DNA from: Owenia fusiformis
Lineage: Eukaryota > Annelida > Polychaeta > Sabellida > Oweniidae
DNA length: 64,000 bases
Direction: 5' to 3'
Assembly: GCA_903813345.2 (NCBI GenBank)
Contig: CAIIXF020000007.1
Location: 17,905,564 to 17,969,563, forward strand
Both the position numbers and the translations under genes were made by a program. How positions within the stretch are numbered: position 1 is the stretch's first letter; each line of letters opens with the position of its first letter. The notes under the pieces were generated by a model. It did no database searches. It was not told the origin of the DNA and was given only the letters and a program-made list of their open reading frames with translations. Positions 10,740 to 59,681 of this stretch are shown here, piece by piece.

Positions 10740-13270
10740 TTCGTTCGATGGGATAATGAATTAAGATAGTAGGTTAATCCGGTAGCCGACAGCCGAATGT
10801 TGCATTCACGAATGCAAGCTTAGATATCAGATTTAAAAAAGAAATCAGACTAGAACCCACATATACAGTAGTCTAGTGACGCATGCGCTTTGTATAACGA
10901 ATACGCTCGGGAGTTAAATTGCACCAAGTTATAATAAGATATTCTCGAATAATCAGTAACTTTATTAATGCCCCGGTTGTATTTTATGTGTCAAGCTAGA
11001 AGAGGTTCTCTATTGATTTAGGAGTTAATGAGTTATTCAAATATACCCGAAGGACTTAAAAAACGTTCCTGAATCTTGCAAAATAATGGCATTTTCGCGA
11101 AATATAAAACGTGCCACGCGTGACTGTTGATGGTCGTTCAACTTCTCCTCATGTTATCTATAGTTTAGGTTACTATAACAAAAATCTAAGCATCGTAGCT
11201 CCAATATAAGTTTTCATTTGTTATTCCATTTGTTTGTTTTCCTAAGAGAATGTCGACAGTTCATATTGTAAGCGAGGTTTCTTTGACTTGTTACTTTTGC
11301 GCTAAATTGTTTCCATCGATTAGTGCCCGTAACAATAGTTGCGTGACAGAAAGAGTTGGATTCTAAATATGAAATATGTTATATGATTTAACTATAGGAC
11401 TTATATGGATTTGATGCAATAGTTTGCCAAGACCGTAAAGAGTTCAAAATGTCGAAATATATTCGAAATATATTCTATATATATATATATCTATGTTCGG
11501 CAAGGAGTCTTTTTATTGTTGAGATTTCACTCCAAGCTCAGTAACAGGGAATGTTTTAAACGCAAAAAGCACAGTTCATAGAGATTTGCGGAATTAATTT
11601 ATCCAGTGAGAAAATCCAATCAGTGACACGTTAAGGATTCTTTTCTGAATCTTTATTAGTTTAGCTTCGAGATATAATCTCTTAAAACCGGCTCATTTTA
11701 CCTCAACTGCAGCATAGCGCTCAATACACCACAGTAGGCTTACGGGTAATGTAAAGTACTCGAATAAAATAGCTTGAACACATCCCAGTAAACGTTATCT
11801 ATTTCAGATATCGAGAATCGAAGCAAGCTGTGAATCTAAAAAATAACCAAATATAAAGAGAAACGATGCATATGGGATCAATGCGATAATCAGCAGTTCG
11901 GTATATAACACACCCCACCTTCAACACAACTACACATGGTTTTCATAATTCTGTGATGGATTTGAGTAGTGCGAAAAAAGAGGTATTGAAACTGTGGTCA
12001 TGTTAGGAAACCCAAGCTCATATTATTCATAACATTAGTCAAATCTAGATCTAGGGTGAGGAATTTTCTTCCTGTGTCGGGGGTTTCAGTAAAAAGGTAA
12101 ATGTAATTTGCGTATTCATTATAACGATACGTTTTAGTAGACGGTGAACGCATAATGTAATATGTATCCGTTATAACCATACGTTTTACCGAGACAGTGA
12201 ACGTTGTTGCAAATTGAAATGTAATGTAATACGTATTCGTTACATTACGTTTTACGAGACGGTGCACGTATTTGCCGTTAACAGGGTGTGCTGAATCGGG
12301 GCTGAATCCGGTTAAAACCACTCCGTTAATAGATGGGAATCAGTAAATCATTCAACAGAGGCGCGATCCAATCAATTACGACGCTTCGAAGCAATAAATG
12401 AGCGACTATCAATTTTCCTAAATTGAATTTTGCCAACAAACTGCCGCTTTAAGAATATCAATTCCCAAGTGGGGACTGTATGATAATTTAAGGCTTCTAT
12501 TACACAGACAATAGTCACAATACACCAAGGATAAAGACAGGAGCTGCGTAATCTGGTAATGCTCTATAAAATCCATATTACACACAGTCGGGGAGGCATT
12601 ACACAATATGTTCCGGTTGGTATTGGTATTGGCCATGGTGACCTATCTTGGAACTCGGGTAAAACGCCAGTGCCGGAATTGTTTTAATTTGACAAACTGA
12701 CAATGCCATCCGAAGAACAATGAAACTGCATCTAGTACTAGTCATACAAATATAGACTGTTGGTGGATTATCAGTTACAATAATGCTGCAAGGCTTAACG
12801 CTAGATTATCTCGCGGATGTGGAATATTCTGTCGTAAGAGGCCTTTATTGGTTTAGATCTATATAGTTCTACTATGCGATGCACGCAACTTAGATGTAGA
12901 GCTACACGAGGAAAAATATTCTTATCGATTTGTTGAAGATAATTCAGTGTGGTAATTCGAAATCAAAGGGGAGAAGATTTGAGGATTAGCCATTAGAAAC
13001 CTTCGTAATGATAAATCAAAAAGTGTATATCTTAACTCATCACCACTTGGGATATTTACTTGGGATGTTACTGGATTTCATTCCTGTTCTATAAATACTG
13101 CGTAGTATGTATTACATTGGCTAACAGTCTGTTGTGTGTTAATACTGGTCAGTATTGATGGAAAAAGAATTGGATTTTTTAGACTTACGTAATGCTTCAA
13201 CAAATGTTATAGGAATATTGACAATTGATTAATCATATTAGTGAACGGATCACTATACCAAACTGCATCG
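10740..13270. other. Intergenic, no gene recognised
   Basis: AT-rich, with many stops in every frame. The only structure seen is a loose tandem repeat at about 12115-12275, where 'tacgttttac/tagagac(g/a)gtg(a/c)acg' recurs three times about 60-75 bp apart. Confidence 0.5.
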
Positions 13271-13291
13271 ATGATCCTCACAATTTCTACC

Positions 13292-14464
13292 ATGGAAATC
13301 CGCTTCAACAAGCCAGTCATCGGCAAGATATGCGCCATCATCGCTTTCTGCATACTTGTCTCTTGGGTGCTCAGTGACGCCAATGTTTACACCTCCAGTC
13401 GTCTACCACACGAGGAGCGCAAGGCTTTGTTTTTCAAGACCTTACTTAACCTAAGCGAAGCAGAAGAGGCGGATCTTCTCGATGAACATCAATATTTTGC
13501 TTATGAACCGGAATGTGAAACTGATATTAGAAAGTTAGATATTAACATGCCAATGGTAGCACGGGGTAGTACAAGAGCTGTGGGTGCGAAACTTACGTCT
13601 CTGATTACTGTTTTACCAAATGACCTAGTAAAGGTTGCGAACAAGAAGTTCAGAAAGACGGAAGTGATATACACAGCTTTGGTTACAGAGGAAACACTGT
13701 TGTTCGCAAAAAGTTGGTTGTGCAATACAAAATATTTAGGAATACATCCATCGGTTTTATTGTTCTCTCCAATGCTAAGCGTGATTGAAATCTTGAAAAA
13801 AGAATGGCCTGGTGTAAACGCTTTGTTTATTCCCATTTCTCAAGCAGATGAGCTGAAAGAAAAGCATGGATTTTTCCACACTAAATTAAAAGGTTTATCG
13901 ATGATGGTTGTAAAACTTTATGTAATCTCTACACTTATTCAAAATAATTTCCACACCGTTCTATTCGAGACGGATTCTTATTGGAAAAAGAATCCTTTAT
14001 CTCATCTTAGAGGATACTCAAAATCTGACGTCATATTTTCTAGTGCGTCCCACCTCAGTGATCATTTGTCACGTGGTCTCCTATACTTTAAACCGATTGG
14101 TCAAGTACATTCAGCTTTATCCAATACAACGAAATACGTCCACGCAGCCATGCGTAGACTTGTATCGAGTAATACAACGGACGAGTGCACAGTTTACACA
14201 TTCCAGGCGTTTCTTCAATGGAATATCATTGACTCTGGGAAAGTGAAGTACAAACTGCTACCATATTCCATCGTGGCAGACGGTATGTGGTACGTCTATC
14301 ACTCTAAAGAGTCGAATCGGAGATATGTTAAACAATCACCCCACGACCCAATTATCATTTTAAATAATGGTGTGCGAAAGACTCGTCTGAAAATATTTCG
14401 TGCTGAAAAGCACAAGCATTGGTTCTTGAGAGATGATACAATTTCTTGCAAATGGCAACGTTGA
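13292..14464 (+). CDS. Type II membrane glycosyltransferase-like protein (Nucleotid_trans-like), single exon
   Basis: A 390-residue uninterrupted frame from the ATG at 13292, which sits in ACCATGG, an excellent start context. An in-frame ATG at 13271 could add seven residues, and an in-frame TGA lies upstream of both. Residues ~10-27 (IGKICAIIAFCILVSWVL) form one hydrophobic anchor after a short basic tail, giving a Golgi-type type II topology. Mid-protein, HTVLFETDSYWKKNPL resembles the strand-plus-DxD region of the nucleotide-diphospho-sugar transferase family (Nucleotid_trans, DUF271-like), where an acidic-x-Asp followed by a hydrophobic pair and Trp binds the metal-nucleotide sugar; here it is Glu-x-Asp. 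Family assignment is from this motif, length and topology. Donor and acceptor sugars are unknown. It is convergent with the EGF membrane gene to its right. A candidate AATAAA lies at 15114-15119. Confidence 0.8.
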   Translation: MEIRFNKPVIGKICAIIAFCILVSWVLSDANVYTSSRLPHEERKALFFKTLLNLSEAEEADLLDEHQYFAYEPECETDIRKLDINMPMVARGSTRAVGAKLTSLITVLPNDLVKVANKKFRKTEVIYTALVTEETLLFAKSWLCNTKYLGIHPSVLLFSPMLSVIEILKKEWPGVNALFIPISQADELKEKHGFFHTKLKGLSMMVVKLYVISTLIQNNFHTVLFETDSYWKKNPLSHLRGYSKSDVIFSSASHLSDHLSRGLLYFKPIGQVHSALSNTTKYVHAAMRRLVSSNTTDECTVYTFQAFLQWNIIDSGKVKYKLLPYSIVADGMWYVYHSKESNRRYVKQSPHDPIIILNNGVRKTRLKIFRAEKHKHWFLRDDTISCKWQR

Positions 14465-41023: not shown

Positions 41024-41116
41024 AAATGATGGACTGGACCATGTCTTCAAGAGGCTTTACCATTTGGTTATTTATAGCATGTTTGCAATGGAGCCTCAGT
41101 CATGCCCAGATATCTG
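41024..41116 (+). CDS. Signal-peptide exon of the VWA gene
   Basis: An acceptor tatttcag precedes 41024, so a non-coding leader exon lies upstream. The ATG at 41026 (with a second ATG next to it) opens a 30-codon exon with hydrophobic core [14 protein letters not shown] and a likely cleavage after SHA. It ends TCTG|GTAAGT in phase 1. Confidence 0.85.
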
Positions 41117-44100
41117 GTAAGTACGTTCTGATTAAAATGTTAGATATTTGATATTGTTGTGGGGATCATGAATAGGAGTCAAATAAATGTGGTATTACCA
41201 TCTCACACATACATATTTTCAAAAATATCAATTTGTTTAATGAATTTGATGGAGTTTAGAGAAAAATATCAATATTAAAGTTTACCTATTTCCCCAAAGA
41301 TATGGACTTATTGAATCCAAATACGGGTATATTGAGCAAAAAGTGATTAAGTGATTGGTATCTTTATCAAACCAGGCATTTTCAGTGGTGTATTCTTGAC
41401 TAACATGAATTGTGATAACTTAGGAATTCGAATTCGAAGTAATTCATTGTAAATAAACTTGAGATCTGAGGAAATTTTACTACTCGTATTACGTGACTTT
41501 AAATCAGAGTGTAACTAAGGTACATTGTTACTATAAAACCCGGGTTATGAAGTGGAATTAATTCTGTGACAAGTAAACATTAAATATCGAATTATTCAAG
41601 GCTCTATTTTAGAACTCCTTCTATTTATCTACTTTGAATATATTTTATCTTGACATCTAAACGAATACAAGGTTAAGCTATGATCAACAGAAGCATAATT
41701 GTTTCCCATTCAGCAATTTTTCAATTTATTCACCGTGTTTTATAAATACTAACCATATTGTTTATTGTTTAGAATTTTATCGAAAGATAAGAATCAATGT
41801 ATTCAATCAATGTAAAGTTTAAACCATATACCCAAGAAAAACATTGTGTATACCATTAAAAGTTAATAAGAGTTTGAATGAGCTCAAATGTACGGACATT
41901 AATTATAAGTTTGAGAGTCATGACCTTAGTATTGGATGTAGGAGTCTAAGCGGTGTATCTAATGAGTAATGACTGTGGCTTCGTTTCACCATCGTCCCTC
42001 TGCCACATGTTATAACTTTGGTAATAATAAATAGAAAGTATTACATCTCAAAAACTAAAGCAGTTGAAACATATTGATAAAAGAATATTTCAAATGTACG
42101 TGTGTATTCCAAACACACGATTTTGAAACCTGTGATTACAAATTTTAAAAAATCAAATTGCTGTTGAAATGATGCTTACTAATGATTATAGTGCCTATAA
42201 ATGTGCATGTGAGAAATATAAATAATGTTTGTATTCAAAGTAATATTTAGATGAATACACAAACAAATATTTGAAAACGTAGACTAGTGAGGTTCACTTG
42301 CTGGCATGGGTAACACCAATACCTAATGGTAATGGTATGTTTTTGCAGGTTTTATTTCAATGACTATTAAAATACACCCATATAATAAATCACTATACCT
42401 TTAGTAACAATCCTACGAGCCATTTACTTTTACAAAGGCAGCTTATATAGTTCCAACAATGTTAGTCCATTGTCGGATCCAAAGCATATACTATCCATTT
42501 TGGAGTAGAAAATCTTTAAGGTTCAGCTGGAAAGTAACATTTGGGAAAAAATTGCTATACCTGCACATGTTATTTTCTGGTACAAAATTAAGTATGAAGG
42601 CATGTGTGTATTTCCTTGCTTTTTTCAGGAAAGTATCATTACACTGTCTACTTTTAGTAAACCTGGAAACAGGTCAATGGTAGCCCCTGTGTTGTCTGGA
42701 AACTTTGAATGAAAATTTGGAAAAATAGAAAGTGTGAAATATCAGAATTTCCTGGAGTTCCCATTGAACTCCTACTAGATATTCTTAAAGAAGACAATGT
42801 AATGATACTTTCCTGAAAACAGCAAGGCAATTGACACATGTCTTCATACTTTATTTTGTACCAGAAAATAACTGCTGGTATAGCAAATTTTTACCAAAAT
42901 GTTACTTTCCAGCTGTACCTTAAAGAGAGACTCTTATAAATCAGAATGAAGTTAGTCTGATTAGAGACAATGTGGCGTTACGTAGTTTCCCCAGAAAATA
43001 AGAACAAGGAATTATAACGCGTGTCCTATTTGGTTTCTAAAACTATTTTTAGTGTCTTCATTCAATTGTGACTTCGACAGTGGAACGTTTTGTGGGTCTG
43101 GAGTTGCAACCTGGGAGATCTACAGAGGAAACACTGGGGGCTCAGACACAGGACCAGACTCGGACCACACATCCCAAGACGAACGAGGTAAGCCTACTCC
43201 CAATAAAACATCCTCCAGAGAATTCGTCTCTGTATATACGTACCACGTATTCACTATATACCATCTTAACTGATGAATGTCTCTGGCATTTCAGTTATGC
43301 ATTTTATGATACACAAAGTCCTAAAGTATAGGGATATTAACAATCAGGGAGCAATAAATTAATGTGCAATGATTACTTTATGTCCAAAAAGCATACAGTG
43401 TCTTCAAAGCTAGCCAGGAGCAAATAGTTCATACAGGTGACATCAGCAGAGTCTTAGGCGATGGTGTGAGGAATTCTAAATATCTTATAGAAATAAATCA
43501 TGAGGAAATTGCACGAGAAATTATGATGATGTTAAAGTGTGCGTGTGTCATCCAGTTATCGTTACGGGTGCCTGGACATTTCTTCTGATCTTTTCTCTTT
43601 TTCTCCCTGGTCAGTTTGATAAGACATGTACATACTTGGTGTGATTTGAATCAGCAACTTATGAATCATTAGTACGTGTAGAATACCATATCATTATAAG
43701 CATTTATATTGACCTTATTCCCTAGATTGTGACTGATAGAATACAGAGTGGACCGAATCATCATCCAAACTTAGTACTAAGCTAATGTCTAGAATGACTT
43801 TTTTCCTAAAGTTAAAAAATGAAAGATACTCAAAGATGAGTTATAAAACCAAGTGGCGATAGTGTGCATGATACGCAAAACAGAACAACATAACTTGTCA
43901 TCAGAGTTACAGCTGAATGTGTGAGATAAGAAAACATAATGTGTATGATAAGAAGAACATTCTATCATCATACCAGGTTATATTATTTTGTTGATATAGG
44001 TCGATATGCATCAATCGACGCCTCTAGCATGTCCACATCCCAAATTGCCACGCTCACCACTCCTAAAATCTCTCGTGGCGCTGCCTACAGGGTGGATTTC

Positions 44101-47100
44101 TACTACCATATGTACGGAATTGGCATCGGCTCACTCACTGTGTACACAAATACCAGCGGCACAATCAAACAGATATTTAAACAAGAAGGTACGTTTACCA
44201 TTTTTTCCTTCCAGATGTCTCTTTAACGTCAAACTCTACATTTACCAAAAAATGTTTCTTTTAAAATCGCAAAATACAATTATAGATTGAATTAAAAACT
44301 TTTTAAGAATTTGGTGCAATGACTTACTTACGTCATGCAATAGCACTGTTTGACTCGGAGGACCTATGAGACTGATCATACCATTTCGGTTTAGATACTA
44401 GTATATTTTTCCTTTAAAGGTTTTTACCTTTAAGTACTTTGAATTAAATTTACGAAAGGACATTACAATTCAAGCATTTCTCCTCAAAACAACTTTATCT
44501 TTTTAAATTGCAATATTTTGTCATCATCCCTTCATAAACTATATTCTTATTCACAGGACAAAAAAACTAAAGTGATTTTTGCCAAGATATTCTTTTCAAA
44601 ATGACATTTTTACTCAATACTTTCATAACTCCGCTAAATAGTTTCATAGTCATAGTAACATGTTTTTCACTTAGAGCCTTTGGGAAACACAAGGGCGTTT
44701 TCGACAGAAATAGCTTTTCAAGTATCTACACGTTTTATTCCCGTGGGTGTATTTAAATACGCGTGAAATGATTCAATTACAGAGTATAATGTTGATCTAG
44801 GTCAGATTGTAATTTACAGCATCATAAATAATGAACACATTTCCAAAACTTATACATAAGCTGTTTTTAATCATGTCACAGTTTTGTTAACTTAAAAATC
44901 ATTATATTCGAGATGTCATTTGCCTTTAAAGTGTAATCATAATTTCAAAAAGTAGCATTAAAAGGCTCCAAATTGCATATTTACTTGATCTTTGGCCTGT
45001 TAATCGTAGGTAATCAGGGAACGGAGTGGCAACCCGCCACTATAACTTTAGACGTAACAGATGAAGACTTCAACGTCATATTTGAGGCAAAGTCAGCTGA
45101 TGACAGTGCCACTGTCCAATTTGGAAATATCGCTCTGGATGATATAAGTATTGCAGAAGTTGGGTCAGGTACGTGTTTACTCCCAGTTGGTATCGCCCGC
45201 TTCCATAGCATTTACTCGCACTGATTTAGTTCAAATTAATGAGGAAAATGTGCTTGTAATATCGCGAACCCCCCTCCCCCTCTCCCCCTGTTCAAAGATT
45301 CTTTCTAAATCAGGCAGTTTTTCACCATTCTTAGCACTTTCAAGTGATTTGGGCCATTTTTGGGCAAAAGTAAAGTGACCCCCTGGAATCTTTTAAAAAG
45401 TGAACAACGTCATCAATTGCAACCTGTCAAATCCTGGCTACAGTCCTGTATTGCAAGGATAGCCTGGGCAGACAAACTTTTTAACATAATTGTATGATAT
45501 TCACATTTAAATCTTAAAATGGGCTCATTATAATAGGTCTCCGTGATATGTGAATTGAAATGTTCGAATGCTCAATATACGAATATGATGCAGTGATGCA
45601 TTTGTCGCCACCAAAAAGGTATATAGGAATATATGTTTGTTATAATGTAGGATGTGGTATGAGAGATATCATATTTGCAATCGATTCATCTGGAAGTATC
45701 GGAGATGCCAACTTTACCCTCATCCTCGACTTTGTGGCTGGGATCGTTCAGGATATTGAAATAGGCCCGACTGCGAACAGAATCGGTGCTATGAGTTTCT
45801 CTAGTGATTCGGTCATCCGGTTCCACCTGAATAAATATTTATCTAAAACGGTGACGATTAGGGCAATACAGGCGATACCCTATGACAAAAGGGGAACTAT
45901 GACTGCAACTGCTTTGGATATGGCTGCATCGATGTTTTCAACGAAGAATGGGGATCGGCCAGAGGCAGATAATGTTGGTAAGTGTGTCATCAGGCCAAAA
46001 CTTTCTGTCCTTTTAGTGCATCTTTTTATCTTGCAAAGAATGAGCTTCAATTTCATATTTTGCCTGACGCCAGTCATTTTCTTTATTTTGATCATGGAAT
46101 TTTTGACTAACACATAACTGAATCCAAAATAAAAAAAATAAAAATGTAACAAGATGATCTTGTTCTCATTTATGTGAAGTTCAAGAGTCATAAATACTTC
46201 TTAATAACTGCTGCAAAATATTTTCCCCATTAGCCATTGTGATAACTGATGGTCGTTCGGATGAGCAGGGTGCTCGAGAGGCAGCCGAGAGGTTGAGGAA
46301 CGCCGCAGGCGGTGTACAGGTGTTTGCCGTAGCCATTCTAACCAAAGAATTGAACAAGGCAGAAGTAAGAGCGATCGCCTCTGATCCAGATGCTGACTAT
46401 TATTTCGAAGTTATGACATTCAAAAACTTGCCAGATATCAAAGGAAGACTTGCTTCTGCCTCCAGTGGATGTGAATTTTGTAAGTGCACCATCATTAATA
46501 TCACATTCCTTTCCGGCAAGGTGATATTCTGTTAAACCAAATATTGCAAAACAGAACAACTCCTCGTGCATCTATATGCATCCTCATACATTAGTACATG
46601 AAAATGTATAGGCATTTCATAATTTTGACTTGAGGTTAGGATAATAGTTTCTGCTTTTGGTTTTCATTGTATTATATTTTTGACAGACTGTGAAGGATCA
46701 AAGGTTGACGTTGTATTTGCTGTTGAAAGAAGTGTCAACGTGTCTGACATTGAGAACATCATGACATTTCTCAAGCGAACCATGGAAGAACTGGGAGTCA
46801 GTGAGAACGAAGGTTTCAGTTTTGGATTGATTACATTCTCTGGAGAAGCCAAAGTGGAATTCAAACTTGGAGAATTCAATAATTTCCCTGCCCTGAAAAA
46901 TGCCGTAGAAAAGATCGAGGTATATCTAATTTATTTTGGTTCTTCTGTTTTAAACTGCGGCTTACTTTGGTGAGAAATATATCATTATTAGCATATATCA
47001 GCCATTGCTGGCTTGTTTATTGTGACAACAAATAGTAACCTTTCTTTGACTAGGTTGGAACCGGAGGGAGGGGAACGTACAATGCTTTGAGGCTACTACG

Positions 47101-50100
47101 CGAGATGTTCACAGAGGAGAACGGCGACAGGGCAGATGCCGCAAATGTAGCTATCGTACTGACCAAAGGGATATCAGATGACGTTGACAACACAATGAAT
47201 CAGGCTAGGAGACTGCATGATATAGGAGTCAAGGTATGCTATTCGATATAATTACACACTTTGTCTATTTCATATTGGATTCTGCAAAAACATATATGGA
47301 TCACTTGGTATTTTAAGTAGTTTCCCACTGCCAGAAATACCAGGTATTCTTCAAGGGGGTGCTTCTTGTTCTGTTTCTGCCGATGATGTGCATGCGCGTA
47401 ACCAACATTTCAGTATCTCCTGTTCGTCTAACATTAGCTTGATACTACATACATTGAGTTTTTTCAAAATTAAAAAGACATAGAAGAGTCTAGGCGCAAG
47501 TTTAGCCTACTCCCTCGTGCTTTGAAAGGAAATAATATATAAGAAATACCAAAATGAAAGCTTCATATTTGTAGGTGTATGCTATTGGAGTTGGTGAGAT
47601 GGTGAATCATGACGAACTGAATGCCATAGCAACAAGCCCCGTAAAAACCCACGTCCTTAACGTAACTAAATACGAGGATTTGGTTGGTATCATAAACCCT
47701 GTCAAGGAAAGAGCATGTTACGACACAGGTAATTTATAGCAATGTTATGATTCGATACAATGTAGCATTTCAAGTTAGCCAGTGGAAGGGAATTCAAATG
47801 TTGTTCTTCTGGAATAATTGTCAAAATTGCACTCTTACTGGGTCTGGCTGAGCATTTATAAACGAAAAGTAATTAGGTCACTCTAAAGTATCTGTGGACA
47901 GAGGGACAACTATCAAAGGCTATTTCTTTATCAGACATGAGATCCTTCCTTCAAAAGTAAAGCATCAACATGCAATTTTCTATTCATATTTCAGAATGTC
48001 GCAAGCGTGAACTCGACTTGGTATTTATGGTCGATGACTCTTCTAGTATTAATAGCGCTGACTACGCTCGTTGCCTTGGATTCATCAGAGCGGTTATCAG
48101 CCGATTGGATGTAGACCCCAAGTCCACCAGAGTCGGCCTCATCACAATGACTGGCACGACAATTCATTTCAATCTGGACACATATCAAACTAAGATAGAT
48201 ACGCTGAAGGCAGTTGAGGAAATACCCAAGTCAAGTGAGTCAGAAGATGAATGAGTTCTAAATAACTGGATCATCCCTCTTTTTAACCTGAAAGTGACAC
48301 CGGTTTTAAAGTCGTTTTGATAAAATTCAACCAGCAATATTTTGGTTTTCATAAAAGGACGATTCTCGGTTTGGAAAACAGTCTCCTGGGCTAATAATTT
48401 TTTCATGAAAAATATAGAAATATTACCCAAATTAAACTATGAATATTCAAAAGAGGACATTTAAATCTACAAGATGTAAAAATGACAAATTGGTCTGAAG
48501 CAGGGGTAACGCTCAATTAGACCGATTCAATAAAATACAAGTCTCGATTTGGGGAAAGAAGTTCATCAGTGTACTGCGCTAATAATTGTTTGCAAAAAAT
48601 CTAGAAATATTACCCTAATTAAATTATGACTATTTAAAAGAAGACATTCAAATCTATATTATGTAAAAAAAATCAAATCTGTCCGAAGCAGGGATAATGC
48701 TCATTTAGATTGATGAACTTCGTTCTCCAAACCGAGAATCGTCCTTTATAATGATTTATACATGTGCATGTTTGACCTACTTAATAGTAAATGGTACCTT
48801 TATATTTTCCATTTAGCCGTCTGTAATAGTGAACACTAGTCGGTTGTCATTTTTAATAGTCCCACCGTCAGAATTCAGATGGAGTAATTGATGTTTTCTA
48901 GTGTCTGCATCTATCAATATATAACAGCACGACTCTTAAATACTGTGCCTATGTCAACAAGTGTGATTAATTCATGAATACTGCAATTTGTCTCCTGTTC
49001 ATTCAGATGGTTTGAGCGATCTAAAGGCTGCAATATCCACTGTACGAAATGATATGTTTGGTAGTAAAAGCAGGGTCAATGTGCCCAGGATGGTTATAGC
49101 CCTGACTGACGGTAAACATACTGATAAGCAAGGCATCGCTGAACAGGTGGCAGAGGCAAAGGTCAGTCAAAGCATAAGAGGGTTGATACACTAGAATTCA
49201 GGATTGTTATTCCCTTCAAATTATGAATTTTAGCTCAGATCTCTGTGATTATTTCTACCTTTTACTAAATCTTATTGAGAAATTGAAAATGAAGAACGTA
49301 TTCATGGCTTAATTGAACCATATACGACTTTATCGAAAGGTCGTAATCTACACTTAGGTATTAAATGCGGTCGCATATGATGATTATGGTTCAAATTGGG
49401 CTGGGACAAGTTTTAAAATCTTGCTCATATTTTATCATGAAACACAGATGTTATTCGTAGTTAGTTATTAGACGAAGCTCTGTTTGAAGAAGCAAGATCA
49501 AACTGAATTGATTAGATGTTCTGTACTGGGGTCACTTTCTTGTAACATTAACTAAGAAATCTCAAAACACATGAAGTTATATTTATGTCAAGATGCCTGG
49601 TTTTTGATTGTGCATTGTGCAGAGAGAAGGCGTGATGTTCATAGCTGTTGGTGTTGGAAACGAGGACAATGTGGACATGCCGACTTTGAAACTAATCACT
49701 GGAGACGCCAGGCGTCTCTTCATCATTGATGATCATATGCAGCTCAGAGATGTGGCGGCCAGGGTTACACAAAGTGCTTGCAAAGTTACTGGTATGGCGT
49801 TAGACAAGCTCAGCAATTCTGAGTTTCTTTAATTTTCTACTTGATTTCTGAGAAAAAATTTACATTTTGTACTCTTAAAGACGTGCAGCATAACCTCCCT
49901 ATTATGTTTCGGTTAAGACTTGAAATAAAGAAGATTTAATATGAATTTTCCAAGTGCAGTAATGCAAGTGCCCCTTGTCCATTTGCAGTGTGTGAAATCC
50001 CCGTTGATATCGTCTTCGCACTGTCTCGATGTGGAAATATCACTGGAACTGAGTATGCTGATGTACTGGAGTTTGTTGGTAGTCTTGTGGATGAGCTGGA

Positions 50101-53100
50101 CATTGACAGTGGTCGTGCTAGGGTCTCAATCATTTCTTACTGCCAGGATGTATCATATTTTGTTTACCTTAAAGAGTACGTATTCATTATTTTCTTTTTT
50201 TATGTTTTATTAAGTTTAGATTTGAAAGTTTGAGATTTCTCCAGATATCTTGCATATATCATTCATATTGCAGAAGTTTTAATAAGTGTAAAATAATAAA
50301 ATATTACTATTTAGTTTAATATAGTACCATAACAGTGATGACTCATCTAATTTCGAAATTATATATTATATATATGTATATTTTTCATCGGTTTAAATGA
50401 GGTTTCCAACTTATATATTCCAACAATATATGTAAGATGTACACATCAGATTGCAGCAGATGCTCCATAAGTAATCAAGATATCTTCAAAGGACGATTCT
50501 CGGTTTGGAGAACAGTCTCCTGGGCTAATAATTGTTTTCATGAAAAATATAGAAATATTACCCAAATTAAATTATGAATATTCAAAAGAAGACATTTAAA
50601 TCTACAAGATGTAAAAATAACAAATTGGTCTGAAGCAGGGATAATGCTCATTTAGATTGATGAACTTCGTTCTCCAAACCGAGAATCGTCCTTTTGCAAA
50701 AGCCTTTAATAACCATTTCCATTCTCCAAATACTGTTTTGTCTTCATGTCATCGCATCATCCATTGCAGCTATTCTAGTCGTCTCGCTATAAGAGATATC
50801 ATATCTGACATGCCAACCGAAACCTCTGGGACACCTGACCTTGTAAACGTCTTGAACAAACTCAAAAGTGATGTGTTTAAACAGAGCAATGGTGATCGTT
50901 TTGGAACACACAATGTAGCAGTGTTTATTGCAAAGGGTGAGAACACGCAGGCCGCCAGTAGCATCGAGGCAGCCGCAGCAGACGTTCAAGCAGCTGGCAT
51001 AGAGATTTTCTCAGTTGCATTCGGAAGTTCTCTTGCTGAGACAAAGTTGGATCTTGTTGCATCAATACCAAAAGAAGTACATCAGTTTCAAGTGGAGAAG
51101 GCCAACAATCTGCCAACTATTGAGAGAGGTTTAGCTCGTACGGCTGCTTGTCCGAGTGGGTGTGAAGGAATTGCAGATATCACTTTTATTGTTGATAGGT
51201 CGGGTAGTATTGGTGTGGCCGATTTTGAAAAAATGAAAGCATTTCTTATTAGTATCGTAAATGATTTGGCTATTGATGGTGATAATAAAAACAAAATAGC
51301 AGTCATTACATACAGCGATACTGCAAGATTGGAGTTTGGATTGAGCAGTCATGGAAACCGAGACGCTGTGAAAGATGCAATTACAAACTTGCCATTTACA
51401 AGTGGAGCGACTCACACTGCGGACGCCTTACGTATGATGAATGAAGAAGTCTTTACACTCACTGCCGGTGATCGTCCTAAAGTACCAAACATTGGTGTTC
51501 TCATATCAGATGGTGTGTCCACTGTTAACGCTTGGAATACCCCAGTGGAGGCGCTTAAAGCCAAACAAGCAGGAATAGAAATATTTGCTCTTGGTATAGG
51601 ATCGGATTCTATTGAGAAGGAATTAAATGCAACTGCTAGTGATCCTGATGAGAAATATGTGTTTAGAGTGAGAGAAGGTATAGATGCATTGCCTTCTATC
51701 AAAGCCGCTCTTGTACAAGGGATCTGTAATTGTAAGTATACATTTGCCTAATACAGAATTCTATCAAAAAAATAGATAACATAACGTGAAGTTCATGAAT
51801 GTATAAATGATATCTAAATTAAGTCTTCAAAAGAGTTGTCTTTGAGACCCATTATTTAATGGCCAAGTGTCTTATATTTTCTACATTGCCACCTATTATG
51901 TCCTTCCATTGTAAACTTTGTCTTGTCTTTGTCTTTGGGATTATACTTTGGATTTTTACTGAGGTTCTATATAACTTTCTCTTGTAGATCTTGATAGCTG
52001 TGATCCAGACCCATGCCACGGCAAAGGGACGTGTGAGGACAACTTATACGGATATGAATGTACTTGCCAAGGAGAATCATCTGGAGACAGTTGTGACAAA
52101 AGTAAGAATATATAAGCACAAGTGCCAAAAGTTGTAATGGAACTTAGCAAGAAAAAGCAAACTCTAAGTATTTGACTAGAAAATTGACTCAGTAAGCTCT
52201 CTGGACAAAAAATCTCAAGAGTAATCATAAATGATACTTGCCTCACTAAATGATACAACCTATAGTCAAACAATAAGTATCAGCAGACCGGAGAACATTG
52301 CAACCGGTAAAACCCACAAACAAAACAAACGACACAAACACTCAATGTCCAATTATTTTCTTATGTATTTACAGCTTGTAACGTCCATAGCGATGTTGTG
52401 TTTCTGATGGATTCATCCGGCAGTATTGGTGCTGACAACTTCATCATAATGAAGAACTTCATCAAGGCTATCGTCAACGATCTTAATGTGGGCGCTGGTA
52501 TGTCTCGCATTGCGCTCATCAGCTTTGGTTCCGATGCTTTCATTCACTTTTCCTTGAGCGACTATGATACAAAGGCGGGTGTAATGCACGCTGTGGATAG
52601 AATACCATATACAGGTAAGCCCATGGTATACGACCCTACAATTGTTGGTTTGCAATTTGTAGACTTTAGAAGCCCAAAAATCAAAAAAGGAGCAATATAA
52701 ATCTTATAATTAACATCACTCTATTTCATCTTCTAATACAGGTGGCGCTACCAACATTGCCGACGCTATACAGCTAGCAAGATTTGGAGTCTTCAAAAAG
52801 CCTAGTGAAATTGGCAACAATCGAAAAATTGGTTCGTATTTAAGATCAAATATATGCATTTACTGTAGTAGATGAATTTGTGATACCGCATGGCACTTTA
52901 TCTAATGCCTGAGAGGGAGTACTCCAAGGAATAATGCAGGTTGTGGATCTTGTTTTCAGCAATCATGATCGGTGATGGGAGATCCACTGTTAACGTAAAG
53001 GACACCGTATTGCAAGCCCGACAGGCCAGAGATGAAGACATTCATATATTTGCAATAGGTAATGGTCTACTCTTGATTCAAGATCCTGGACTCCCTACAA

Positions 53101-55197
53101 ATCTTCTTCGACAACTGTTGTTGAAGAAGGGAAGTCTTGAAGCAAGACCAGTAATGGTCCTATTCCTAGTAATCACTCTCTGAAATAATCAATTAATTGA
53201 GAATACAATTCTCTTCTGCTTGGTGGAAAATCAGTTTACATTTAGTAACTTAAGATCAATTGTTCCATTCCTTACGCCTTGCTCATTTAAATTGTCTCCT
53301 ATTGTTTCATTTTATCAATGGTTGAGGCGTAGGACGTCGTTGTTTTCTTGTAGCTGGTCGTAGTTCTAAATATTTCCTGGTTGAATGTATTATTCTTATT
53401 CTGTCATTATCCTTTTTGCCATTCAGCATATTGCTATGTCTTTAATGACTACGTATATAAACATACATTTGCAATTTGATTATTACTATCCTAGGTATTG
53501 GTCAAGAACTGTTGATGTCTGAGTTAAGAGGTATTGCAAGCGATCCAGACGAAAAAAATATTTTCCAGGCTGATAACTTTGATATGCTCATGAACATCCG
53601 AACGATACTTGTTGACCCTGTATGTAATTGTAAGTACACGTCTTTCAATTTGATGCTTATAGTCAAACAAGTCCAGTTCCAAGGAGTTATACTGTACAGC
53701 TTAGATTTACACTAAGTCTTTTATTTTCTGTCCTGTTTTATGTGGTCTGCCAGCTGGGATGATATCAGAAATTGTAAAATGTAACATAATCACGTGTTTT
53801 TATTTAATAGATGTCGACGAGTGTAGCAGTTCACCATGTCAGAATAATGCAACCTGCGTGGATGGAGTAACTGGCTATCACTGTCAATGCAAACCTGGTT
53901 ATTCTGGATACCGATGTGAAAAACGTAGGTCAAGTATACCCAATTCAGTTTAAGGGTATTAAGATAGTATTGTGAAGACGGACGAAAGAATGGGTCCACG
54001 GTGTCCTTCATCGTTTTTATTTTTCAGATATTATTTCATTTTACCTAATATCAGCTGACACACTAGAGATAGGTGCAGATTCTTAATTGTCAAACCATTT
54101 ATAAGATACATCGATCTTCTAAGGATATTCTTCTCTCAATAGTAAAGACCGATCGAGGAGTCGGAAATTTTGCTTGCATTTGTCACTCTCACTTCCCTTA
54201 TCCTAAATGTAGCCCTTCGTATTCCAGAATGCGAAAAGAAGGTGGATGTGATGTTTGCTCTTGATAGTTCTGGTAGTTTGGGTGTGGACAACTTTTACAA
54301 ACAACTTTACTTTATGCAGGTATGCAAGTTAATACATTCCGGTTTTTGTCGATTCTGAAATTATGGACTTTACCACTGACGCTTGGAGAACTAAATATTT
54401 TTCACATATTCCATTTCCATCAAATATAGTACAGACACTGGTAAATATACACTGTCGTAAAGATGAAATTGGTTTATCTTTGCATTTCTTGATATGTAAA
54501 CATAGCATTTTGAATGTTCTACAGGACCTCACCAGCCAACTAGGCTATAATGGTGGAGAGGGAGTTCGAGTCGGCCTGTTGACCTTCTCGGATAGAGTCA
54601 CTAACGAGTTCTCATTCGATCGCTTCCTTGACAAAAACGCCATTTCCAACGCTATAGGCTCGATACCTTACGTAAATGGTAAGCAAATTATATATCATTT
54701 GTTTTGGCACTGTCCATTAATGAATATCGTTAGACTTATCAATGGGATATCAAAACAAATTGTTATATCGGTGGATAATTGCACAGTAACTCGGAACAAG
54801 CTTCAATGATTTTAATGTTTAGTAGTAATGTCACGTACATAATGTATAAATATGTATATCAATTTCAGGAGCAACGAATACACAACTTGCGTTTAAAGAA
54901 CTTCGTAAACAATTTGTTCTCAAAGGACGCGGTGACGCCGACAAAATTGGTATCCTTATCACAGATGGCATTCCCACTTGGAGTTTGAATCGAAACCAAG
55001 ACATAGTCGAGGCAAACATTACACGAACAGCTGGAATAAAAGTCATATCAGTAGGAATAGGAGATGCAATTGAGAAAAAAAGACTTGAAAAATATTCATC
55101 TGAACCTAAAAAAGACAATGTTTTCCAAGCAAAAGATTTTGATAGTCTAAGTATTTTAGTCAGTGCATTGGGAGAGAAGATCTGCAATGGTTTATAG
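41024..55197 (+). CDS. Secreted MAM-VWA(7)-EGF(2) mosaic extracellular protein (23 exons, ~1,597 aa)
   Basis: Coding exons: 41026-41116, 43053-43187, 44000-44188, 45010-45168, 45651-45977, 46234-46479, 46687-46919, 47054-47233, 47575-47728, 47995-48234, 49007-49161, 49623-49791, 49989-50175, 50770-51731, 51988-52101, 52375-52614, 52742-52831, 52960-53058, 53495-53629, 53811-53924, 54228-54319, 54525-54678, 54869-55197. All junctions are GT...AG with matching phase; the sum is 4,794 nt ending in TAG. Order: signal peptide (1-~28), MAM (~31-191), VWA1 (192-382), VWA2 (383-571), VWA3 (572-759), VWA4 (760-~940), VWA5 (~945-1142), EGF (1143-1180), VWA6 (1181-1368), EGF (1369-1406), VWA7 (1407-1597). 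Domain edges are phase 1, the mark of exon shuffling. With no membrane span it should be secreted. Matrilin- and collagen-VI-like VWA proteins, and some shell-matrix proteins, are the nearest functional analogues. AATAAA near 55849. Confidence 0.9.
42515..42924. mobile_element. TTAA-flanked inverted-repeat element, ~410 bp, in VWA gene intron 1
   Basis: Left end TTTAAGGTTCAGCTGGAAAG and right end, on the other strand, TTTAAGGTACAGCTGGAAAG; inverted similarity extends about 140 bp inward ('gtaacattt', 'cctgaaaa', 'gtatcattacattgtct'). TTAA is present at both edges, as expected for piggyBac or Kolobok targets. No coding capacity. Confidence 0.85.
43053..45168 (+). CDS. MAM domain of the VWA gene (three exons)
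   Basis: Exons 43053-43187, 44000-44188 and 45010-45168. Family hallmarks appear in order: [12 protein letters not shown] with W after it, then GPDSDHT in exon 2; [18 protein letters not shown] in exon 3; and IALDDISI at the end of exon 4. MAM domains mediate adhesion or oligomerisation. The usual Cys of the FWYHMYG region is not obvious here. Confidence 0.92.
45651..46479 (+). CDS. VWA domain 1, MIDAS intact
   Basis: Two exons. DSSGS follows the first strand, Thr is present in [10 protein letters not shown], and Asp in VITDGRSD, so all metal-ion-dependent adhesion site (MIDAS) parts are present. The second exon ends with the family's [12 protein letters not shown]...LPDIKGRL stretch and a Cys just before the splice. 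Confidence 0.92.
46687..47728 (+). CDS. VWA domain 2, MIDAS lost
   Basis: Three exons (46687-46919, 47054-47233, 47575-47728). The fold is clear ([43 protein letters not shown]), but the DxSxS motif is replaced by ERSVN and the TDG loop reads TKG. Metal-dependent ligand binding is therefore unlikely; a structural role is inferred. Confidence 0.88.
47995..49791 (+). CDS. VWA domain 3, MIDAS partly kept
   Basis: Three exons (47995-48234, 49007-49161, 49623-49791). DDSSS and LTDG are present, but the Thr-bearing loop reads [10 protein letters not shown] without the usual Thr. The first intron carries a full copy of MITE family M1 (48354-48747). Confidence 0.88.
48354..48747. mobile_element. MITE family M1, copy in a VWA gene intron, 394 bp
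   Basis: Same inverted ends (AAAGGACGATTCTCGG... and complement) and dimeric interior as the copy at 25836-26230, in inverse orientation. It lies in the intron between 48234 and 49007. Confidence 0.9.
49989..51731 (+). CDS. VWA domains 4 (MIDAS lost) and 5 (MIDAS intact)
   Basis: Exon 49989-50175 begins VWA4 ([12 protein letters not shown]: DxSxS lost). The 962-nt exon 50770-51731 holds the rest of VWA4 (loop IAKGENT, Asp lost) and, with no intron between, all of VWA5: [27 protein letters not shown], all MIDAS parts present. Every other VWA domain here is split over two to four exons. VWA5 keeps the coding pattern but lacks the internal introns. Confidence 0.92.
50488..50694. mobile_element. 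MITE family M1, short copy, 207 bp
   Basis: Same ends as the 394-395-bp copies but only one interior half. It starts like the first half of the 48354 copy and ends like its second half. It sits 75 bp upstream of the acceptor of the 962-nt VWA exon. Confidence 0.9.
51988..52101 (+). CDS. EGF-like module 1 of the VWA gene
   Basis: A 114-nt phase 1-1 exon with six Cys: [13 protein letters not shown] then YECTCQG and DSCDK. The last loop ([11 protein letters not shown]) is short and lacks the usual Gly-Tyr. Confidence 0.88.
52375..53629 (+). CDS. VWA domain 6, MIDAS intact
   Basis: Four exons (52375-52614, 52742-52831, 52960-53058, 53495-53629). [15 protein letters not shown] and MIGDGRS supply the metal-binding residues, and [15 protein letters not shown] marks the end. 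One intron more than in any other VWA here. Confidence 0.92.
53811..53924 (+). CDS. Calcium-binding-type EGF module 2 of the VWA gene
   Basis: A 114-nt phase 1-1 exon. DVDEC at the start, CQNNATC, then [14 protein letters not shown]. The DxDEC start and the aromatic residue before Cys4 fit calcium-binding EGF; the middle consensus D/N residue follows ATC as VDG. Confidence 0.92.
54228..55197 (+). CDS. VWA domain 7 and C-terminus, MIDAS intact
   Basis: Three exons (54228-54319, 54525-54678, 54869-55197). [14 protein letters not shown] and ITDGIPT are present. The frame ends EKICNGL-TAG just after the domain's closing Cys, so the protein stops with this domain and has no membrane anchor or collagen repeat. 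Confidence 0.92.
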
Positions 55198-56320: not shown

Positions 56321-57269
56321 CAGGGTGTCCAAAAAAACAGGACCGTAGGAAAGTTGAATAACTCGACCATATTTTACCTTGAAATTTCAGAATTATTTAG
56401 TTCATTCAATGTGAATATTGTTGTAAAAGTTTAATAATAATCTGCCAGTTGAGTCAAAACCTACAGTTCCTTACAAAACATGCCCCAAATGTGCACCTCT
56501 CCTCTCTATGCACAATTCAATCCGGCTAACAAAGTTGTTGATGATCTTCCTCCACACATATCTTTCTGAATGTACAAGTTTATTCCAAGAACGATTGAAA
56601 CTAGGGCTTACATCCTCCTGATGAAATGTTACGGCATTTATTGCATTCTGAACAATGCATTGCCTGGATGGCAATGAGGAAAATGGAATCATCAGTCCTT
56701 TTTGGTTCGAATGTGAATGGGGACGTGCTTTCACCATGAACACGGACCAGTAAGTTCTCGCTTAGTTTTGGAGGTCACTAAGCACCAGAAGGGAGATAAG
56801 TAGTGGTTTCAACAAGCCAATACCACCCTAACACTTCAAATGATATGCTGAAATGGTTTAGGCAATGCTTTGGTGGTCAGCTCATCAGTCGCAGAACGCA
56901 AACCATATGGGCAGCTCATTTGTCAGATCTAAATCCCCCAGATTTTTATCTTTGGGGATTTCTCAAAGCCAATGTGTATACTGACAGGCCCCTTGCAATC
57001 TTAAGAGGGCAATAACTACCCCAATATGTACCATCCACATTGATCTGTATCAGTTAGGGTCATTTACAAATTGGTTCACATGTATATAGAGAGGTGCCCA
57101 CTTTGAGCTTGTTTTGTAAAGTACTGTAGTTTTTGACACAATTGGCAGATTATCATCAAACTTCCAGAACAAAATTCATATTGAATGAACTAAATAAATT
57201 ACCAAGGCAAAATATGCAAAATTGACCGAATTATTCATTTTTCTTACGGTCCTGTTTTTGGACACCCTG
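56321..57269. mobile_element. Rearranged Tc1/mariner-type element with palindromic 3' ends
   Basis: Ends CAGGGTGTCCAAAAA and complement, TA on both sides, CAGGACCGTA following in both. On the plus strand 56840-57000 reads FGGQLISRRTQTIWAAHLSD then LNPPDFYLWGFLKANVY, the third-Asp region of a DDE transposase. On the minus strand 56743-56471 ends RIELCIERRGAHLGHVL, the C-terminal tail of the same kind of protein. The outer ~170 bp of the two sides are also inverted copies. Both ends thus derive from the transposon's 3' end and no functional transposase remains. Confidence 0.82.
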
Positions 57270-57719: not shown

Positions 57720-59681
57720 CAGGGTGATCCAGAAGTAACGTCAAAGACATTGTAATTTCAAAAGTATTCATCAGATCTTCATGAAATTTGGTATACATGT
57801 ACCCACAACATTTCTGAGTTACCATCTCAAAGATTGGAATTCAATCATTTCATTGGTTGAAATTATGGTTGCTATAGTAACCCGATATCGCGTAACCCGG
57901 GGCAAATTGAAGAGAAACCATAACGTTTTTGTGAATTTCTCTAATTTAAAAAGTCAGTAACATTTGAAAATGTTCATTGTTTGTTTTCTATGATTTTTAT
58001 ATTTGTTGCCATGGTAACAAATATGTAATAGTTGTGATGTCACAATAGGCATTCATAAAAAGCTTTCAATTTCTTTGAATTGCTTCCATCATCCATGACA
58101 AATACTAACATGACCAAGGACACTAACCCACCCAATTCAAGATGGCGCCAAGTCAGAGTAAAATAGAGCAAAGAACAAACATTAAGTTCTGTGTAAAGTT
58201 GGGGAAAGGTGTAAAAGAGACTATAAGACAGATAAAGAAGGCATATGGTAAAGCTGCCATTGCTGAGAGAAACATTTACAGGTGGTTTAACAAGTATTCC
58301 AGTGGATATGATGAAGTGGTAGACAAGCAGCGAGGAGGCAGGCCAGTGTCGTCATTCGATGATCAAACCATCAAAGCAATTGAAGCTGATGTTATGGACA
58401 ATAGGCAAATTTCTATCAGAGAATTGGCTGAAAAACACGATCTGAGCTATGGGACTGTGCAACGGATACTGACAAAGAACTGTCTGTTAAAGAAGGTGTC
58501 TGCTAAATGGGTGCCGCATGACTTGACACAGGAGCAGAAAGACCGGCGTGTTAAGGCTTCAAGGGACTTTCTTGCAAAATATCGGAGAGATGGAGATGAC
58601 TTTCTTAACAAGATCATTACGAGTGACGAATCATTGCTATCATTCTACATCCCAGAGACCACGCAACAAAGTTCATCGTGGAAACATGACAACTCCCCAA
58701 CACCAACCAAGCCTGAAATAGTACCAGGAATTCCACAAAAGAAACAAATGGTTGTGACATTCTTTGACATTAGAGGAATGGTGTTAACCCATTTTGTTCC
58801 CATTGGCCAGAGAATTAATGCCGTTTACATTGCAAAGGTAAGATATCATTTGTTCTAATAATACATCATACTGTGAATTTTATTTTTAAATTAAAGTATT
58901 TAAATGTTGTTCACTGTCAATATAATTATAACTCCATGGCCATGATTCAAATCCAAATCCAATCAATGAAACAACTGGTTTAACAACCATTAAACATTTG
59001 TTTTTCAGGTTCTGAAGCGTGATCTTCAACGTTCCCTGAGGAAAAAGCGTCCCGGACATCTGCAGCAGTTTATCTTGCATTGGGACAATGCCCCTACGCA
59101 CACTGCAATCCTGACCAGCAACACAGTCCAAACACTTGGATTTCAACAACTTGAACATGCCCCTTATTCACCTGATCTTGCCCCCAGTGACTTTTATTTG
59201 TATGGGGAACTAAAAAGAAACCTTAGTGGAAATAATTTTCAATCCTGTGAGGAATTGAAAAATGCCGTAGTACTAGCCCTACAAGGAATGAGTTCTAATG
59301 GATTTAATTCTGTGTTCAAGGAATGGGTATCCAGACATGAGAAATGTGTTGCAAATGGTGGCAATTATGTAGAATGAACTATTATTAGTAACTGTGCAAT
59401 AGTATGATTTATATTGTTGTGAAATAAAATGTTGAGGATATAACAATTTCAGATCTTGTTGATATTTTGAGATTACGCATTACACGTTAAGTAATTTGCC
59501 CCGGGTTACGCGATATCGGGTTACTATAGCAACCATAATTTCAACCAATGAAATGATTGAATTCCAATCTTTGAGATGGTAACTCAGAAATGTTGTGGGT
59601 ACATGTATACCAAATTTCATGAAGATCTGATGAATACTTTTGAAATTACAACATCTTTGACGTTACTTCTGGATCACCCTG
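57720..59681 (+). mobile_element. Apparently intact mariner element, 1,962 bp, ~190-bp terminal inverted repeats
   Basis: Terminal inverted repeats 57720-57910 and 59492-59681 start CAGGGTGATCCAGAAG and differ at only two positions by eye over about 190 bp. TA (within GTAC) flanks both sides. The interior codes for a complete transposase. Near-identical repeats and an unbroken frame indicate recent insertion. Confidence 0.93.
58142..59377 (+). CDS. Mariner transposase (D34D), with one intron, 354 aa
   Basis: Exons 58142-58837 and 59009-59377, joined across GT...AG (GCAAAG|GTAAGA ... tttttcag|GTTCTG) in phase 0. Residues 1-~60 form the first helix-turn-helix (HTH_48 type), followed by a GGRPVS linker and a second helix-turn-helix (ISIRELAEKHDLSYGTVQRIL). 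Catalytic Asp residues: ITSDES, HWDNAPTH and LAPSDFYLYGELK. There are 34 residues between the second and third Asp, the mariner D34D signature. Length is close to the usual ~345. No stop or frameshift is present if the intron is spliced. It cuts and pastes the element by binding the flanking inverted repeats in the nucleus. The ATG sits in AAGATGG. Confidence 0.93.

Follow-up and report, generated by a model that had tools for sequence, protein, structure and literature searches.

The window analysed here is a stretch of 64,000 nucleotides from the genome of the annelid Owenia fusiformis (C7:17905564-17969563 within a 498-Mb genome), and our subject is a gene on its forward strand, at window positions 41026-55197, that encodes a protein with seven von Willebrand factor type A (VWA) domains. 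Rebuilt from the DNA, the gene comprises 23 exons, and all 22 introns between them run from GT to AG; the original prediction of this gene had counted 23 junctions, one too many. The coding sequence of 4,794 nucleotides translates into 1,597 residues plus a stop, with the reading frame open throughout. Exon limits were set manually with the domains as a guide, and frame and splice signals were checked afterwards. Coding sequence has a G+C content of 44%, compared to 33% in the introns, and no Rfam match reached the gathering score anywhere in the window.

A Pfam scan of the predicted product gives the order signal-like N terminus, MAM, VWA1 to VWA5, EGF, VWA6, EGF, VWA7 (the VWA domains are called V1 to V7 hereafter). 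The MAM and both EGF domains score above their cut-offs (Table 1), and all seven VWA domains have the fold by a wide margin, at 99.9-146.6 bits against a cut-off of 23.8 (V1 146.6, V2 118.1, V3 114.0, V4 99.9, V5 139.3, V6 133.3, V7 117.3). These scores are far beyond chance. A simple hydropathy scan of the product found no 19-residue window above 1.6 that would suggest a transmembrane anchor, and the longest Gly-X-Y run found in a simple scan for a collagen helix was 3 triplets. The claim of seven VWA domains in one signal-led, unanchored predicted chain stands.

The metal ion-dependent adhesion site (MIDAS) of each domain was read as motif, Thr position, and second Asp by alignment to a model of the gene's seven VWA domains. 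The site is intact in V1, V5, V6, and V7, with DxSxS, Thr, and Asp all present, as originally predicted. V3 had been described as partial with its Thr loop lost, and the Thr is indeed changed; the change is milder than described, being a replacement by Ser with both Asp residues retained, for which reason V3 may still bind metal. In V2 the site is lost as claimed, with Arg at the Thr position and Lys at the second Asp, and the domain is short of two residues just past the motif. The site of V4 is lost as well, though its motif in register is SRCGN rather than the LSRCG first given, with no Thr in register and again Lys at the second Asp. Read from their sequences, V2 and V4 are dead at the metal site, yet their VWA fold is well kept. 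An RGD tripeptide occurs in V7 (window 54928-54936, residue 1509), where most other domains of the same protein read GDR; integrin binding through it is only a guess.

Table 1 Exons and predicted domains of the VWA gene in the window.
Feature	Window position	Strand	Remarks
Exon 1: start codon and signal-peptide-like N terminus	41026..41116	+	signal peptide judged by eye
Exons 2-4: MAM, residues 34-190	43053..45168	+	PF00629, 94.0 bits, E 1.1e-26
Exons 5-6: VWA1	45651..46479	+	MIDAS intact, DSSGS/T/D
Exons 7-9: VWA2	46687..47728	+	MIDAS lost, ERSVN/R/K; sequon N400-V-S in former MIDAS loop
Exons 10-12: VWA3	47995..49791	+	DDSSS/S/D, Ser in place of MIDAS Thr, both Asp present; odd Cys598
Exon 13 and start of exon 14: VWA4	49989..51157	+	MIDAS lost, SRCGN/-/K; sequon N776-I-T; extra Cys774 and Cys811
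Remainder of exon 14: VWA5	51158..51731	+	MIDAS intact, DRSGS/T/D; shared VWA4/VWA5 exon also present in four paralogues
Exon 15: EGF1	51988..52101	+	PF00008, 24.7 bits, cut-off 21.5
Exons 16-19: VWA6	52375..53629	+	MIDAS intact, DSSGS/T/D
Exon 20: EGF2	53811..53924	+	PF00008, 44.9 bits
Exons 21-23: VWA7	54228..55197	+	MIDAS intact, DSSGS/T/D; stop TAG three residues past last Cys

Relatives of the gene were sought in the same genome. A genome-wide Pfam VWA search, in which 150 of 685 candidates were scored, returned at least 156 matches. From the best of these we read 11 loci including the window gene (locus E), and other clusters of VWA matches, on C1 and C8 for example, were left out; after two partial domains (B_7 and L6_3) were dropped, 57 domains were counted. 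Comparison sequences came from this genome and the PDB. Five VWA domains followed by EGF, VWA, EGF, and VWA were found at locus D (C7:28.925-28.934 Mb), locus A (C7:5.902-5.917 Mb), and locus B (C5:15.945-15.953 Mb, last VWA partly read). Locus C (C5:37.73 Mb) has four VWA domains, an EGF, and one further VWA in the stretches read, and locus F (C7:5.867-5.891 Mb) has MAM pieces, four VWA domains, EGF, VWA, EGF, and VWA. All five share the C-terminal VWA and EGF order of the window gene as far as they were read. The original prediction did not recognise its domain order, and rightly so as far as named proteins go; without the MAM, however, that order is present at three more loci of this genome.

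The MAM domain is distributed more unevenly. Among loci A, B, C, D, and F, MAM pieces lie upstream only in F (at B, 2 kb of upstream sequence were read), as two consecutive pieces of 25.0 and 22.4 bits, against a Pfam cut-off of 26.4 that applies to a whole protein. MAM parts also precede VWA-EGF-VWA-EGF-VWA at loci L6 (C7:18.58 Mb, last VWA partly read) and L8 (C7:30.23 Mb), so that variants of the form MAM-VWA(1 or 4)-EGF-VWA-EGF-VWA occur at three loci. A model built from the window gene's MAM found none within 11 kb upstream of D, and a genome-wide search with the Pfam MAM model, which scored 150 of 276 candidates and gave at least 140 matches, had none near D among the matches listed. Little follows from this, because two of the three MAM exons of the window gene itself, and the pieces at F, also escaped that search.

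Gene structure ties these loci together as well. In the window gene and in A, B, C, and D, one open exon holds the latter half of V4 together with V5, although the open stretch tested in B ends inside V5. In all seven genes whose end was read (the window gene, A, D, F, G, I, and L8), the last VWA cysteine lies 0-3 residues ahead of the stop. Given the common VWA5-EGF-VWA-EGF-VWA order and the shared V4/V5 exon, the predicted protein is a member of an in-genome family of multi-domain VWA-EGF proteins. Locus G, ~20 kb downstream of the window gene's stop and outside the window, has five VWA domains, and no EGF was found at it. Its second VWA (L002, positions 1733-2209) has an intact MIDAS and extra cysteines, in the DESCS loop and immediately ahead of the Thr loop, which makes a disulphide beside the metal site possible. 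Elsewhere, at C1:37.840-37.860 Mb on the reverse strand (G000), VWA matches whose scores are identical or nearly so recur about every 1,885 bases; this array may be a VWA gene that is very long or has expanded recently.

Loss of the MIDAS Asp is unevenly spread along the family's chains. It affects V2 and V4 of the window gene, V2 and V3 of D, the first and second VWA of F, and the first and fourth of G, whereas A (0/7), B (0/6 fully read), and C (0/5) show none. Across the seven loci A to G, the N-terminal block has lost the Asp in 8 of its 26 domains and the V5-EGF-V6-EGF-V7 module in none of its 17 (Fisher p 0.014). The domains of G were assigned to positions by order alone rather than by tree; with that locus removed, the counts become 6/22 and 0/16 (p 0.030), these p-values being a guide only, as they treat related domains as independent. 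The 14 domains of H, I, L6, and L8 show no Asp loss, counting as kept one domain, I_4, in which the second Asp could be read either way (ITDG or LFAG). For split domains in the paralogues, the Thr column was taken from the second exon fragment.

Domains that lost the Asp tend to sit on longer branches. The median end branch of the 8 lost domains was 1.09 against 0.58 for the 49 kept ones with FastTree, where the strings for E_3, E_6, E_7, C_5, and A_13 partly read into introns (the Asp count is unaffected), and 1.49 against 0.80 on a more careful tree made without the MIDAS columns. For V4, the end branch in the window gene was 1.16 compared to 0.46 in its intact sister from D on the first tree, and 1.68 compared to 0.71 on the careful tree. 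The careful tree pairs the window gene with D at V4 (98/90), V6 (99/92), and V7 (99/93), and less firmly at V3 (92/91). The longer branches of lost domains are more suggestive of relaxed constraint than of a retained special function. We also considered whether the lost domains form a single clade and rejected this, since the careful tree requires 7 state changes (6-8 across bootstrap replicates, with 2 forced by starred branches).

We hypothesize, with a probability of roughly 0.6, that the gene encodes a secreted, unanchored, rod-like protein of an extracellular or secretion matrix, belonging to an expanded VWA-EGF family. The V5-EGF-V6-EGF-V7 module, together with V1, would bind acidic groups of its ligands through a divalent metal in the MIDAS, and V2, V4, and perhaps V3 would be folded spacers that bind no metal and fix reach and spacing. 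The metal site of this module is kept in the loci read, and the module is likely the binding end. Its ligands are perhaps collagen-like or other matrix proteins, the former being a guess by analogy. The V1-V4 block would be a folded arm under weaker constraint that is drifting towards spacers, and the recurrence of site loss in this block across the family suggests relaxed constraint rather than a fixed code. Structural comparison is consistent with such a protein. The predicted structure of the exon-14 product, which holds half of V4, and V5, has a mean predicted local distance difference test score of 89.9 and a predicted template modelling score of 0.65 with 17 sequences. Its best fold match is the mussel protein PTMP1 with a zinc-occupied MIDAS (Foldseek E 1e-25), and it also matches the I domain of integrin alpha-1 and the N5 domain of collagen VI alpha-3. 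By sequence, the best PDB match is collagen VI alpha-3 (E 7.4e-109), followed by PTMP1 (E 6e-38).

Besides the dependence among domains behind the p-values, several points weigh against this reading. The 11 loci were read out of a larger VWA set. Fourteen of the 49 kept domains have an end branch longer than the shortest lost one on the careful tree, so branch length is no clean sign of loss, and the long-branched kept domains include V3 (1.77), V7 (1.57), and V1 (1.28) of the window gene itself. On the same tree, V1, V2, and V5 of the window gene are not paired with their counterparts in D, and the lost domains are not clustered, with 155 of 500 label shuffles scoring as low. Finally, V2 and V4 share a putative N-glycosylation sequon and a Lys at the second Asp, which could reflect selection rather than drift.

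These shared features underlie an alternative that we consider unlikely: that selection made V2 and V4 metal-free and glycan-capped, with V4 also locked by a disulphide. The last Ser of the MIDAS motif would have been replaced by an Asn belonging to a sequon, the cation's place would be filled by the Lys that replaced the second Asp, and Cys774 and Cys811 of V4 may bridge the former site, leaving both domains either non-adhesive on purpose or binding by another face. The sequons N400-V-S and N776-I-T do both place Asn at the motif's last Ser, Lys at the second Asp is found in these two of the 57 family domains only, and each of the two V4 cysteine columns is Cys-free in the other 56. The two domains are 23% identical, and the supported sister of V4 in D is intact. 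The 57-domain alignment shows a sequon at that column only in V4, the one in V2 falling in an alignment gap and being read from the protein; a gap could hide a sequon elsewhere, as 3 of 57 domains are gapped two places on. The numbers are small, however, and the shared sequon, Lys, and Cys features may be chance. In 32% of domains the second residue past that Ser is Ser or Thr, so gaining a sequon by a Ser-to-Asn change is not rare, and Asn occurs at or beside the same place in collagen VI alpha-3 by alignment. The closeness of Cys774 and Cys811 is argued from the fold, and disulphide and glycans alike are putative. A tree constrained to join V2 and V4 is 12.24 log units worse and is not rejected (p 0.25 in the approximately unbiased test, p-AU), leaving convergence unproven. 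A parallel conversion of two VWA domains by one recipe (Ser to glycosylated Asn, Asp to Lys, and in one of them a disulphide) is a doubtful proposal; if true, it would represent a repeatable evolutionary switch from an adhesive to a passive VWA domain.

The original prediction had interpreted the mixed sites as divided labour, and in its strict form, with each repeat holding a fixed role and V2 and V4 being dedicated modules for self-association or spacing, we judge this quite improbable. It draws on V2, which has lost its site in both the window gene and D; in each, Glu has replaced the first Asp and Arg occupies the Thr position. Forcing the two V2 domains together improves the likelihood by 1.82 log units over the free tree (p-AU 0.551), and they may be true counterparts. 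Against it, the V4 of D is intact while its V2 and V3 are lost, other paralogues lose other repeats, all seven sites of A are intact, and lost domains tend towards longer branches. Given that D keeps V4 and A loses none, the idea that individual repeats have fixed roles is not supported. What persists of divided labour is the spacer part, at the level of the N-terminal block as opposed to the C-terminal module. The observations of the original prediction are confirmed and its interpretation is partly supported.

That the model fuses two genes, or that the dead domains come from a wrong choice of exons, is very improbable: although the model was built from DNA alone, intron 1 is 1.9 kb long, and exon 1 hangs on a single splice pair and a signal-like peptide, the paralogues retain the same domain order, MAM and VWA share a single open frame at L6, and in both dead domains the motif residues fall within exons (7 and 8 for V2, 13 and 14 for V4), so that splice choice does not explain the loss of their sites.

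Repeats and mobile elements are present in and around the gene. Intron 1 holds nested inverted repeats (window 42513-42926; 41 nucleotides at 93% and 119 at 83%) resembling a miniature inverted-repeat transposable element, and introns 10 and 13 share a repeat (window 48349-48713 and 50483-50661; 127 nucleotides at 94%, for which a third copy reaches 63%, and 55 nucleotides at 93%). Downstream, window 56333-57259 is element-like, with inverted repeats of 42 nucleotides at 81% and 109 at 84%, and its short open frame resembles a transposase end by eye, with no Pfam match. A mariner-type transposase at window 58127-59377 (+) consists of two open pieces (HTH_48 and Transposase_1; weak DDE_3) with the frame interrupted between them. 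Upstream of the VWA gene, a 411-residue open frame at window 13229-14464 (+) has a nucleotide-diphospho-sugar transferase domain (PF03407, 45.9 bits).

A literature search of limited coverage found no named protein with the order MAM-VWA5-EGF-VWA-EGF-VWA, which is a weak statement, and no paper joining a MAM domain, a VWA domain, EGF, and an annelid. In a coral skeletal proteome, the reported MAM and VWA proteins are different proteins. The predicted protein nonetheless resembles known systems in its parts. Matrilins and AMACO (VWA2) of vertebrates contain a VWA-EGF-VWA core, and the same core is found here as V5-EGF1-V6-EGF2-V7. Unlike matrilins and AMACO, the window protein has seven VWA domains and a MAM; and unlike matrilins, in which a C-terminal coiled coil serves oligomerisation, it has no tail beyond the last VWA to house one, ending 3 residues after the final cysteine. 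PTMP1 of the mussel byssus reportedly binds collagen, to go by the title of the paper on its structure. PTMP1 (PDB 4cn8, 4cn9) is likewise an invertebrate matrix protein with tandem VWA domains, but only two VWA stretches were matched in its 454-residue chain, compared to seven with MAM and EGF in the window protein. The latter is not a two-VWA thread matrix protein of the PTMP1 kind, and the likeness is by domain only.

A Gly-X-Y triple helix is a feature of collagen VI that the window protein lacks. Collagen VI alpha-3 (PDB 9han, 4igi, 6snk) is similar in having a long VWA array with several domains that lack a MIDAS, and differs in having the triple helix; the window protein is further set apart by its MAM and EGF domains and by four fully intact sites among seven. 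Most collagen VI VWA domains are described as lacking a conserved MIDAS (PMC3919171), and in our alignment the first four VWA domains of alpha-3 show no Asp at the second position. Mixed MIDAS states within a VWA array are therefore not new, as collagen VI has the same mixture, and by itself the window gene is an ordinary matrix-type gene. Its paralogues A, B, C, D, and F differ from it in their sets of lost sites. A single genome thereby shows how VWA arrays can lose their metal sites again and again in one block and retain them in another module. The fully intact paralogue provides an internal control, and matching domains, such as V4 here and V4 of D, make the question of spacer versus binder testable.

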